Shown here in pieces: positions 60,099 through 63,667 of a DNA stretch of 64,000 nucleotides. The DNA is from Rhizobium sp. GN54. GTDB lineage: Bacteria; Pseudomonadota; Alphaproteobacteria; Rhizobiales; Rhizobiaceae. Position 1 is the first letter of the stretch. The number at the start of each line of letters is the position of its first letter. A program made the translations under genes and the position numbers. Below the pieces are notes generated by a model that was not told where the DNA came from, made no database searches, and was given only the letters and a program-made list of their open reading frames with translations. The stretch is taken from NCBI RefSeq assembly GCF_021026345.1, contig NZ_JAJNCZ010000001.1, forward strand, positions 868,001-932,000. Reading direction: 5' to 3'.

Positions 60099-60374
60099 AT
60101 GAACAAGAACGAACTCGTCTCCGCAGTCGCTGAGAAGTCCGGCCTGTCGAAGACGGATGCCGCATCGGCTGTCGATGCTGTATTCGAGACGATCCAGGGC
60201 GAACTGAAGAGCGGTGGCGACGTCCGCCTCGTCGGTTTCGGCAATTTCTCCGTCTCCCGCCGCGAAGCATCGAAGGGCCGCAACCTTTCGACCGGCGCAG
60301 AGATCGACATTCCGGCCCGCAACGTGCCGAAGTTCTCGGCCGGCAAGGGCCTGAAGGACGCCGTCAACGGCTGA
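60099..60374 (+). CDS. hupB: DNA-binding protein HU
   Basis: Abundant non-specific DNA-bending nucleoid protein. The 91 residues start MNKNELVSAVAEKSGLSKTD and have VGFGNFSVSRREASKGRNLS followed by the arm and PARNVPKFSAGKGLKDAVNG; the intercalating proline is in IDIPARN. Standard position directly after lon. Ends in a strong terminator. Confidence 0.97.
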   Translation: MNKNELVSAVAEKSGLSKTDAASAVDAVFETIQGELKSGGDVRLVGFGNFSVSRREASKGRNLSTGAEIDIPARNVPKFSAGKGLKDAVNG

Positions 60375-60410
60375 TCCTCCAGCGATCATTTCGGCTTCGT
60401 GCCGACGGAA

Positions 60411-60435
60411 GGGCCCGGTTTTCCGGGCCCTTTTT
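60411..60435 (+). terminator. Terminator after hupB
   Basis: Perfect 8-base arms (GGGCCCGG and CCGGGCCC), TTTT loop, then TTTTT: a textbook intrinsic terminator, 13 bases before the Pho-box motif of the next gene. Confidence 0.93.
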
Positions 60436-60447
60436 CGTTGCCGTGGA

Positions 60448-60476
60448 CTGTCGTCAATCTGTCATCTGATCGTCAT
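60448..60476 (+). promoter_or_regulatory. Triple Pho-box motif upstream of the phytase-like gene
   Basis: Three direct 7-mers at 11-base period: CTGTCGT (60448-60454), CTGTCAT (60459-60465) and TCGTCAT (60470-60476), each separated by 4 bases. This is the PhoB box architecture; CTGTCAT is the exact consensus half. A possible -10 (TGTAAC) lies at 60482-60487, and the gene starts at 60540. Confidence 0.75.
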
Positions 60477-60539
60477 CGCCTTGTAACGGGCGGGGACCAC
60501 AAACCCCGGCATTCCTTGACGCACACTCCGGAGGATCAG

Positions 60540-62732
60540 ATGAAATCCCGTTCCATCATTGCCGGCCTCGCAGCCGTGCTGGCCGCCTCGGTCGCGACCG
60601 CGGCACAGGCCGAGCCCGTCTTCAATCGCATTGCTTCCTTTGCCGTCGCCGACAACATGCCTGATGGTACCGATCCGAAGACGCCGACGTCCTCCGAGAT
60701 CATCGCGGCGACCGAGGACGGCAACACGCTCGTCTATTCCGACAGCCCGCTGAAGGCGATCGGCTTCATCGACATCACCGATGCGAAGGCGCCGAAGGCG
60801 GCCGGCACCGTCGCCTTCGAAGGCGAGCCGACCTCGGTCGGCGTCGCCGGCGGCAAGGCGCTCGTCGCCGTCAACACCAGCGAGAGTTACGTCAAGCCGT
60901 CGGGCTTCCTCGCGGTCGTCGACATCGCCACGAAGGCGATCGAGACGACCTGCGACCTCGGCGGTCAGCCGGATTCGATCGCGCTCAACAAGGACAGGAC
61001 GATCGCCGCCATTGCGATCGAGAACGAACGCGACGAAGAGGTGAACGACGGCGCGATCCCGCAGATGCCGGCGGGCGACCTGGTGCTCGTCTCGCTCAAG
61101 GACGGCGCGCCGGACTGCGCGAGCGTCAAGCACGTCGCGCTGACGGGGCTTGCCGATATCGCCGGCGACGATCCGGAACCGGAATTCGTCTCCTTCAACG
61201 GCAATGACGAGATCGCGCTGACGCTGCAGGAAAACAACTACATCGTCATCCTCGACGGCAAGACCGGCACGGTGAAGTCGCACTTCTCCGCCGGCGCCGT
61301 CGACCTGGACAAGATCGACACCAAGCGGGACGGCAAGATTGCCTTCACCGGCAAGAAGGAAGGCCAGAAGCGGGAGCCCGACGCCGTGAAGTGGCTGGGC
61401 GACGACCGGCTGGTCGTGGCCAACGAGGGCGACTGGGAAGGCGGCAGCCGCGGCTTCACCATCTTCGACACGACCGGCAAGGTCGTCCACGAGAGCGGCC
61501 CGTCGCTCGAATACGCGATCGCCTCGATCGGCCACTACCCCGACAAGCGCAACTCCAAGGGCGTCGAGCCGGAAGGCCTCGAGGCTGCGACCTTCGGCGA
61601 AGACAACCTCTTCTTCGTGCTCGCCGAGCGCGCATCGATCGTCGGCGTCTACAAGGACACCGGCGCCGAGCCGGAACTGCTGCAGCTCCTCCCGTCGGGC
61701 ATCGGCCCGGAGGGCGCCGTCGCGATCCCGTCCCGCAACCTGCTGGTGACCGCGAACGAGACCGATCTCGTCGAGGACAACCTGGCGCGTTCGCACGTCA
61801 TGATCTACGAGCGGGCCGAAGGCACGGCCGCCTATCCGCAGATCAAGTCCGCCGACAAGGACGGCCTGCCGGTCGGCTTCGGCGCGCTCTCCGGCCTCGC
61901 CGCGGCGAAGGACGAACCCGGCAAGCTCTTTGCCGTCAGCGACTCGGTCTATTCATCGGATCCGGCGATCTTCACGATCGACGCCACCCAGAAGCCGGCC
62001 CTGATCACCGAAAAGCTCGGCATCACCCGCGACGGCGCTCCGGCGCAGAAGCTCGATATCGAAGGCATCGCCAATGACGGGGAGGGCGGTTTCTGGCTCG
62101 CTTCCGAGGGCAATTCCGACAAGCTCTATTCCCATGCGATTCTGCATGTGAACAAGAAGGGCGAGATCAAGAAGGAGATCGCGATCCCGGCCGAACTGCG
62201 CGCCCACGAGATCCGCTTCGGCTTCGAGGGCATCACCACGGTCGGCGAGGGCGACGACACGGTGCTGTGGATGGCCGTCCAGCGCGAGTGGAAGGACGAC
62301 GAGAAGGGCTTCGTCAAGCTCGTCTCCTACAAGCCTTCGACCGAGGAATGGGGTGCCGTCCGCTATCCGCTGGAAAAGGCTGAGGCCGGCTGGGTCGGCC
62401 TGTCGGAGATCACCGTCAACGGCGACTACGCCTACATCATCGAGCGCGACAATCTTCTCGGCAAGGACGCGAAGCTGAAGAAGCTCTACCGCGTCGCGCT
62501 CGCTGACCTGAAGCCGGGCAAGCTCGGCGAAACGCTGCCGACGGTGAAGAAGGAAGAGGTCCGCGACCTCATCCCCGACCTGAAGGCGCTGAACGGCTAC
62601 GTCGTCGACAAGGTCGAAGGCTTCACCATCGACGCCGCCGGCAACGGCTATGTCGTGACCGACAATGACGGCGTCGACGACTCCTCCGGCGAGACCCTGT
62701 TCTTCAGCATCGGCCCCGTCAACGCCATGTGA
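60540..62732 (+). CDS. Secreted esterase-like phytase-family protein
   Basis: A 730-residue exported protein. The signal peptide MKSRSIIAGLAAVLAASVAT ends at AQA near residue 24. The N-terminal half looks like a beta-propeller (PLKAIGFIDITDAKAPKAAG, GGQPDSIALNKDRTIAAIAI), and the C-terminal half matches the esterase-like phytase domain (GFGALSGLAAAKDEPGKLFA, KLDIEGIANDGEGGFWLASE, FGFEGITTVG, YVVDKVEGFTIDAAGNGYVV). Actual substrate unknown. Ribosome site CCGGAGGATCAG. The Pho-box motif upstream implies induction by phosphate starvation and so a phosphate-scavenging role (inference). Confidence 0.88.
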   Translation: MKSRSIIAGLAAVLAASVATAAQAEPVFNRIASFAVADNMPDGTDPKTPTSSEIIAATEDGNTLVYSDSPLKAIGFIDITDAKAPKAAGTVAFEGEPTSVGVAGGKALVAVNTSESYVKPSGFLAVVDIATKAIETTCDLGGQPDSIALNKDRTIAAIAIENERDEEVNDGAIPQMPAGDLVLVSLKDGAPDCASVKHVALTGLADIAGDDPEPEFVSFNGNDEIALTLQENNYIVILDGKTGTVKSHFSAGAVDLDKIDTKRDGKIAFTGKKEGQKREPDAVKWLGDDRLVVANEGDWEGGSRGFTIFDTTGKVVHESGPSLEYAIASIGHYPDKRNSKGVEPEGLEAATFGEDNLFFVLAERASIVGVYKDTGAEPELLQLLPSGIGPEGAVAIPSRNLLVTANETDLVEDNLARSHVMIYERAEGTAAYPQIKSADKDGLPVGFGALSGLAAAKDEPGKLFAVSDSVYSSDPAIFTIDATQKPALITEKLGITRDGAPAQKLDIEGIANDGEGGFWLASEGNSDKLYSHAILHVNKKGEIKKEIAIPAELRAHEIRFGFEGITTVGEGDDTVLWMAVQREWKDDEKGFVKLVSYKPSTEEWGAVRYPLEKAEAGWVGLSEITVNGDYAYIIERDNLLGKDAKLKKLYRVALADLKPGKLGETLPTVKKEEVRDLIPDLKALNGYVVDKVEGFTIDAAGNGYVVTDNDGVDDSSGETLFFSIGPVNAM

Positions 62733-63007: not shown

Positions 63008-63481
63008 TCAGTTCGCCTGGCGGCCCGGGACCTCTTCGGCCTCGTCCCGCGCCCGCTGGAGCTCCAGCGTCTGCGCGCTGAGGCATTCGAGAATCTCGGC
63101 GAGTTGCGCCTTCTGCTCCTCGTCCAGCACCTCGAAGATCGCCTTGACGATCTTGTGCTTGGGCTCCATGGCCGCGTTCATGACCGCAAGCCCTGTCTCC
63201 GTGATCGATACGATCTTGGCGCGGCGGTCCTTCGGATCCGGCTCGCGCACGACCAGCTTGTCGCGCTCCAGCCCGTCGATCGCTTCGGTGACCGTCCGCG
63301 GCGCGAAGCCGAGTGCTGCGGCGATGTCGGTCGAGCGCTGCGGGCCTTCGCAGGACAAAAGGAAGAGGAACTTGCTGCGTGCAAGCGACACGCCTTCGTC
63401 CATCATGCATTCATTCACCAGGCGGCTCACCTGGTGATAGATCTTGAACATGCCCTGGGCGATTTCGAGCGTATCGGTCAT
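63008..63481 (-). CDS. MarR-family transcriptional regulator
   Basis: A 157-residue MarR-type regulator. Winged helix: RSTDIAAALGFAPRTVTEAI (helix-turn-helix) and LVVREPDPKDRRAKIVSITE (wing with the conserved DRRA); the flanking helices form the dimer (FKIYHQVSRLVNECMMDEGV). The ATG at 63481 gives MTDTLEIAQGM; a longer start would include the operator palindrome. Ligand and targets unknown; it probably represses itself via the palindrome 7 bases upstream. Confidence 0.92.
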   Translation of the reverse strand: MTDTLEIAQGMFKIYHQVSRLVNECMMDEGVSLARSKFLFLLSCEGPQRSTDIAAALGFAPRTVTEAIDGLERDKLVVREPDPKDRRAKIVSITETGLAVMNAAMEPKHKIVKAIFEVLDEEQKAQLAEILECLSAQTLELQRARDEAEEVPGRQAN

Positions 63482-63487
63482 GAGGTC

Positions 63488-63503
63488 CAATATAGTTATA
63501 TTG
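63488..63503. promoter_or_regulatory. Palindromic operator candidate of the marR gene
   Basis: CAATATA-GT-TATATTG, perfect 7-base arms with a 2-base centre, ending 6 bases from the marR start. Its size, AT-richness and location fit MarR dimer sites; its position would block translation start or promoter use. Confidence 0.7.
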
Positions 63504-63667
63504 AGGTACCATGTCAAAAGATTTGAAGGTTCTTTTTGGGAACCGGCTTCATTTATTGAACAATCATTTCGCTTTCTTCAACGGCCTGTCGAAATTCATT
63601 GGTGAATAAGCGCCGGGACGGCCTGAAAGAGCATTGACCGGGGTGCCCCTGCGCGGAAAGGTCGGCC

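Follow-up and report, generated by a model that had tools for sequence, protein, structure and literature searches.

The region upstream of a gene for a 730-residue protein in the window (the whole 64,000-nucleotide stretch of DNA analysed here) is very probably a PhoB-activated promoter, at which PhoB would bind and induce expression of a putatively exported propeller protein in this organism. This reading is carried by a repeat array, by the conservation and promoter geometry of that array before orthologues and by the presence of PhoB in the same genome, all of which can be read directly from the genomes, and by the PhoB-dependent induction already published for the orthologue of Sinorhizobium meliloti. 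The features concerned are collected in Table 1.

Table 1. Features of the hupB to MarR interval of the window
Feature	Position	Strand	Basis or detail
hupB, HU-family DNA-binding protein, upstream neighbour	60099-60374	+	PF00216
hupB intrinsic terminator, AGGGCCCGG-TTTT-CCGGGCCCT then T run	60410-60431 by eye; shorter stem 60406-60425 by scan	+	
Distal Pho box, half-sites CTGTCGT (60448-60454) and CTGTCAT (60459-60465)	60448-60465	+	Consensus and matrix scores
Promoter-proximal Pho box, half-sites TCGTCAT (60470-60476) and TTGTAAC (60481-60487), the latter at the putative -35 position	60470-60487	+	Matrix; register of orthologues
CACAAA, conserved CANAA element, putative -10	60498-60503	+	Orthologue alignment columns; function inferred
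GGAGGA, Shine-Dalgarno-like	60530-60535	+	Direct reading
730-residue protein gene, SMc01907 orthologue	60540-62732	+	ATG at 60540
MarR-family regulator, downstream neighbour, SMc01908 counterpart by position	63008-63517	-	Profile search, gene order

Four half-sites, best read as two tandem boxes

The earlier note on this DNA described a three-part Pho box, formed by the 7-mers CTGTCGT, CTGTCAT and TCGTCAT at an exact 11-base period in the interval from the hupB terminator to the gene at 60540. The coordinates bear out the three 7-mers and their spacing, and the identification as a Pho box stands on the strength of conservation, the match to a btaA matrix and the geometry of PhoB-dependent promoters. 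The number of parts needs revision, because TTGTAAC had been overlooked. Four half-sites lie in register at the same exact 11-base period, beginning at 60448, 60459, 60470 and 60481, and the orthologue alignment places TTGTAAC within the box that fits the layout kept in relatives.

Given that the proximal box fits the register of a box, 10 bases and a CANAA element, the four-part array is best read as two tandem Pho boxes, with the distal box at 60448-60465. The array carries the marks by which we recognised a Pho box, namely two 7-base direct repeats near CTGTCAT at an 11-base period, conservation before orthologues, and a match to a matrix derived from another reported PhoB target (btaA), and PhoB is encoded in the same genome.

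The S. meliloti orthologue

By position and annotation, SMc01907 of S. meliloti is the orthologue of the window gene: SMc01905 is Lon (PMC8175422), SMc01908 is a MarR-type regulator (PMC11633110), and the gene order lon-hupB-gene-MarR is common to S. meliloti record CP090106 and the window. Phosphate limitation is reported to induce SMc01907 strongly, and this induction to depend on PhoB (PMC3596328, citing Krol and Becker 2004, Yuan 2006 and Zaheer 2009). The suggestion that the gene lies outside known Pho regulon lists was therefore wrong and is corrected here. PhoB control of the gene is already known from the S. meliloti orthologue, and the switch is mostly ordinary in the sense that the same control has already been reported for the corresponding gene of a second root bacterium.

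The S. meliloti protein is 80% identical to that of the window. The region upstream of the S. meliloti gene likewise has a Pho box, CTGTCAT-N4-CTGTTAC, followed 10 bases on by CAAAAG, but carries two half-sites whereas the window carries four.

Conservation upstream of orthologues

We read 153 upstream regions, comprising 70 from genomes of the family, 80 that were the best of 521 named loci and 3 from outside the family, with some genomes present in both the family and the named sets. The protein is present in 74 of 151 family genomes; 70 of these were used, the others being G083 (not fetched), G026 (split) and G139 and G058 (fragments). Nine of the 153 upstream sequences are duplicates, leaving 144 distinct ones. 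A class-wide sample of 240 genomes contains the protein in 8, the window's own counted, and 3 of the other 7 proteins are full-length. The nearest named relative among the best 80 of 521 is Mycoplana azooxidifex (Rhizobiaceae), with 95% protein identity.

At these loci, the conservation of CTGTCAT pairs is specific to a single spacing. With spacing 11, the best pair scores 11.99 out of 14 on average over the 153 loci; spacings of 8-10 and 12-15 give means of 8.5-9.4. The reversed consensus yields a mean of 9.65 and reaches at least 12 in 6 of the 153 loci, compared with 99 for the true consensus. Control means are 8.15 for letter shuffles, which preserve single-letter composition only, and 8.43 for the 200 bases before hupB at 76 of the same loci. 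A hupB match lies on the same strand within 700 bases upstream in 76 of the 153 loci, and the pair score in the other 77 is 11.96.

Scores of at least 11 out of 14 are found in 58 of the 70 family genomes and 77 of the 80 named loci. Lower scores occur in 12 and 3 of these, respectively, and a level of 12 bits was missed by 4 of the 70 family genomes. Outside the family, none of the three loci with a full-length relative attains 11 out of 14 or has a clear box. When the motif was learned from the orthologue sequences themselves, 140 of the 144 distinct sequences contained a site of at least 6 bits. A lack of conserved 11-base-spaced repeats before orthologues had been named in advance as grounds for abandoning the Pho box; the repeats are conserved.

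The length of the array varies among orthologues. Two half-sites in register are present in 95 of the 144 distinct sequences, three in 17 and four in 25, with 7 sequences set aside as weak. Extra half-sites at offsets of 9, 10, 12 and 13 were seen in only 2, 7, 0 and 0 sequences. Four half-sites are found in the window, in its close relatives L002, L003 and L058 and in M. azooxidifex (L055), and three are found in Mycoplana dimorpha. The four-part array, the variation in array length among two, three or four half-sites, and the conserved weak -10 described below may be new.

Matrix scores and comparison with chance

Two matrices were used. One was trained on btaA upstream regions only, taken from 30 of 63 btaA-bearing genomes, and is the sole matrix independent of the esterase-like gene. 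The other was learned on the orthologues, with seven loci of the window's clade deliberately excluded from training. Matrix scoring of the array, which had been suggested as a check, was run with the btaA matrix and puts 60448 at the top of the window with 15.7 bits, a small lead over the best unrelated site (14.1 bits at 1222). Next are an unrelated site (13.1 bits) and 60470 (13.0 bits), and 60459 takes seventh place with 11.4 bits. The same matrix gives at least 10 bits in the orthologue upstream regions of 66 of the 70 family genomes, as opposed to 17 of 1400 shuffles that preserve single-letter composition only. Among the btaA regions, 11 of 30 reach 11 out of 14 against the consensus, and three (L207, L208 and L214) have no plausible box. 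With the orthologue-trained matrix, registers of the array take the top three places in the window at 18.4, 16.4 and 16.0 bits (the last being 60470), and the next site scores 9.7.

What stands out at the array is the strength of the matches rather than their number in the window. A loose search of the window, allowing the consensus pair up to three mismatches, shows no enrichment (2 matches against 2.63 expected), and both matches fall inside the array. The best consensus scores of the entire window for a pair (13 of 14), a triple (18 of 21) and a quadruple (22 of 28) are all located in the array, and each was equalled in 0 of 200 first-order Markov sequences. Across the whole genome, both strands included, pairs with at most two mismatches number 24, versus 1 for the reversed pattern. 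Two of the 24 are registers of the array, and the array at 60448 is among five sites with a single mismatch.

Probable promoter layout

The box-anchored alignment of orthologues revealed a CANAA element that begins 10 bases after the box and that emerged without being put in; its conserved columns are 28, 29, 31 and 32. The second alignment, used for counting half-sites, was seeded with CANAA. In the window, the corresponding order is the proximal box, a 10-base spacer and a non-canonical putative -10, and this layout is kept in orthologues. The -10-like element shuns T at its sixth position (2% in the orthologue alignment), and a consensus sigma-70 scan detected no promoter in this region. 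From its placement, which is where a PhoB-activated promoter would have its -10, we infer that the CACAAA element serves as the -10.

The btaA upstream regions of Rhizobiaceae resemble the window in having a box and 10-base spacing, with TA straight after the spacer in 20 of 30. They differ in carrying TA.... where the window gene and its orthologues carry CANAA. Like the window, PhoB-dependent promoters of Escherichia coli have paired 7-base direct repeats that form 11-base units. Their box takes the place of the -35 element, as the proximal box of the window would, and among them the ugp promoter also has multiple boxes (PMC4415409, PMC3616915). The window departs from the E. coli promoters in its putative -10, which is CANAA with T shunned at the sixth position. 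For S. meliloti, the box is reported to overlie the -35 in 16 of 33 genes that have predicted boxes and mapped starts (PMC3616915).

PhoB and Pho-type sites elsewhere in the genome

The genome encodes PhoB, with a score of 342.4 bits against TIGR02154 (cut-off 296.2). This model has 52 matches in the genome, and the PhoB protein is the only one above the cut-off. A minority of the 24 genome sites described above were assigned to a known Pho gene. Near some of the sites lie genes for a DUF47 protein, a DUF3419 protein and a solute-binding protein. We take DUF47 to be of the Pit-accessory type and DUF3419 to be of the BtaA type. Separately, btaA-btaB are named as Pho regulon genes in PMC3596328.

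Several other Pho-box-like sites were seen with the orthologue-trained matrix. A very strong one (22.3 bits, G000:C22:305726-305743) lies directly 5' of a DUF2794 gene, which on this sequence evidence is a possible PhoB target. The spacer between a DUF3419 gene and a beta-lactamase-family gene (L044, about 1449-1518) has sites on both strands, at 14.9 and 20.1 bits, an arrangement that suggests divergent PhoB control. Strong sites are also present at L033, L035 and L049 (20.0, 21.9 and 20.6 bits, respectively), and a TctC-type receptor gene adjoins L033 on the opposite strand.

Other genes gave weaker or no sites. The orthologue-trained matrix found no good, correctly oriented site in the stretch examined at the PhoX-family gene (G000:C1:1095395-1097005), although phoX of S. 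meliloti is reported to be PhoB-dependent (PMC3596328). At phnC, scored with this matrix only, the site reaches a weak 9.6 bits. A search for PstS with TIGR00975 returned nothing at threshold in the organism's own genome, and a pstA search served to place the organism's own pst genes. Upstream of a pstS-like gene identified by eye, the reverse strand of G000:C24:259600-263600 (about 2023-2051) carries ATGTCAT, GTTTCGC and CTGACAT at an 11-base period. This array of weaker half-sites scores 3.9 bits with the orthologue-trained matrix and 13.6 with the btaA matrix.

The gene product

The 730-residue protein has a putative N-terminal export signal, judged by eye. As delimited by profile and model, one beta-propeller follows in the N-terminal half, at about residues 24-427, and a second, the PF13449 'Phytase-like' domain, covers residues 446-710 at the C-terminal end. 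The PF13449 match scores 196.2 bits against a gathering cut-off of 27.6, placing the protein in that family. The similarity to choice_anch_I (NF038117) is partial and confined to the N-terminal half, at 86.6 bits against a cut-off of 300, and so falls short of membership.

The predicted structure of the whole protein is nearly all strands (mean pLDDT 86.3), and its fold matches are mostly generic beta-propellers. In the model, the N-terminal part aligns with beta-propellers such as Rrp9 (Z 35.1, 314 aligned) and YncE (Z 33.7, 299 aligned), both at an rmsd of 2.5. The C-terminal part, modelled alone (pLDDT 87.3), aligns across 205 positions with glutaminyl cyclase (Z 19.3, rmsd 2.9) and across 231 positions each with SCAN, a calcium-activated nucleotidase (Z 16.4, rmsd 3.6), and with paraoxonase-1 (Z 14.2, rmsd 4.3), and sugar hydrolases and others are also among its matches. 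A fold in common is no demonstration of function. A sequence search of solved chains found none matching at E 0.001 or better, with propeller folds the only likeness. PhoX and beta-propeller phytases are absent, in either list, from the 50 fold matches listed for the C-terminal domain, an absence that is not probative.

The name 'phytase-like esterase' is a Pfam label, that of PF13449. The likely role of the product is phosphate scavenging through release from phosphate esters. A protein of Nodularia with the PF13449 label 'esterase-like activity of phytase family protein' resembles the S. meliloti orthologue in its strong induction by phosphate limitation (PMC9846622), but it is cyanobacterial, and the comparison covers label and induction. 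An 'atypical alkaline phosphatase' of Synechococcus is mentioned in PMC11098088, and choice_anch_I matches occur in our Synechococcus elongatus control genome; a link from the window protein to that phosphatase is a lead only. At the genome's two other PF13449 genes, the stretches examined contain no Pho box: whichever way they are read, the best sites score 4.8 and 4.9 bits with the orthologue-trained matrix. The box thus belongs with the window gene and not with the domain.

Proposed mechanism and alternatives

When phosphate is short, PhoR phosphorylates PhoB. At the window promoter, PhoB dimers would then bind head to tail on the adjacent boxes at 60448-60465 and 60470-60487, with both boxes used jointly. 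The proximal box would stand in for the -35 element and place RNA polymerase on the weak -10-like CACAAA at 60498-60503, which would put the transcription start near 60510. The resulting double-propeller protein would be exported, and outside the cytoplasm it would most likely free phosphate from organic phosphate esters.

PhoB might instead bind the array chiefly to repress or fine-tune the gene, as with S. meliloti SMc02862, for which it has been proposed that boxes farther upstream of starts may mediate repression (PMC3616915). We regard this as very improbable, since the proximal box lies in the putative -35 position, 10 bases before the conserved -10-like element, and SMc01907 is reported to be induced, not repressed (PMC3596328).

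The repeats could also be the target of an OmpR-family regulator other than PhoB that recognises direct repeats of a similar kind, and the 52 matches to the PhoB model, of which one alone exceeds the cut-off, indicate that other response regulators abound in this genome. However, CTGTCAT in 11-base units is the sequence given for PhoB (PMC4415409), the btaA-trained matrix matches the array, and the S. meliloti orthologue is reported to depend on PhoB (PMC3596328), such that binding by a different regulator is very unlikely. The lack of enrichment in the loose window search would suit an array of chance repeats devoid of any regulatory role. Such an origin is nevertheless scarcely credible when nearly all distinct orthologue sequences hold a site, when the enrichment is confined to spacing 11 and persists where no hupB match lies within 700 bases, and when the independent btaA matrix agrees. 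Activation by PhoB is consequently the reading we retain.

Implications

On a broader and more tentative view, which we hold to be possible but doubtful, this conserved, mostly Rhizobiaceae Pho gene would encode a kind of exported phosphatase that has so far gone unrecognised, in which two propellers are fused and which differs from PhoA, PhoD and PhoX. Over evolution its PhoB array would have shifted between two and four half-sites, changes that might tune the response, and the conserved weak -10 would keep the gene silent without PhoB. With respect to the gene itself, a loosely annotated exported protein is now firmly placed within the response of much of the Rhizobiaceae to phosphate starvation, and the box accompanies the gene even where hupB is not found adjoining it.
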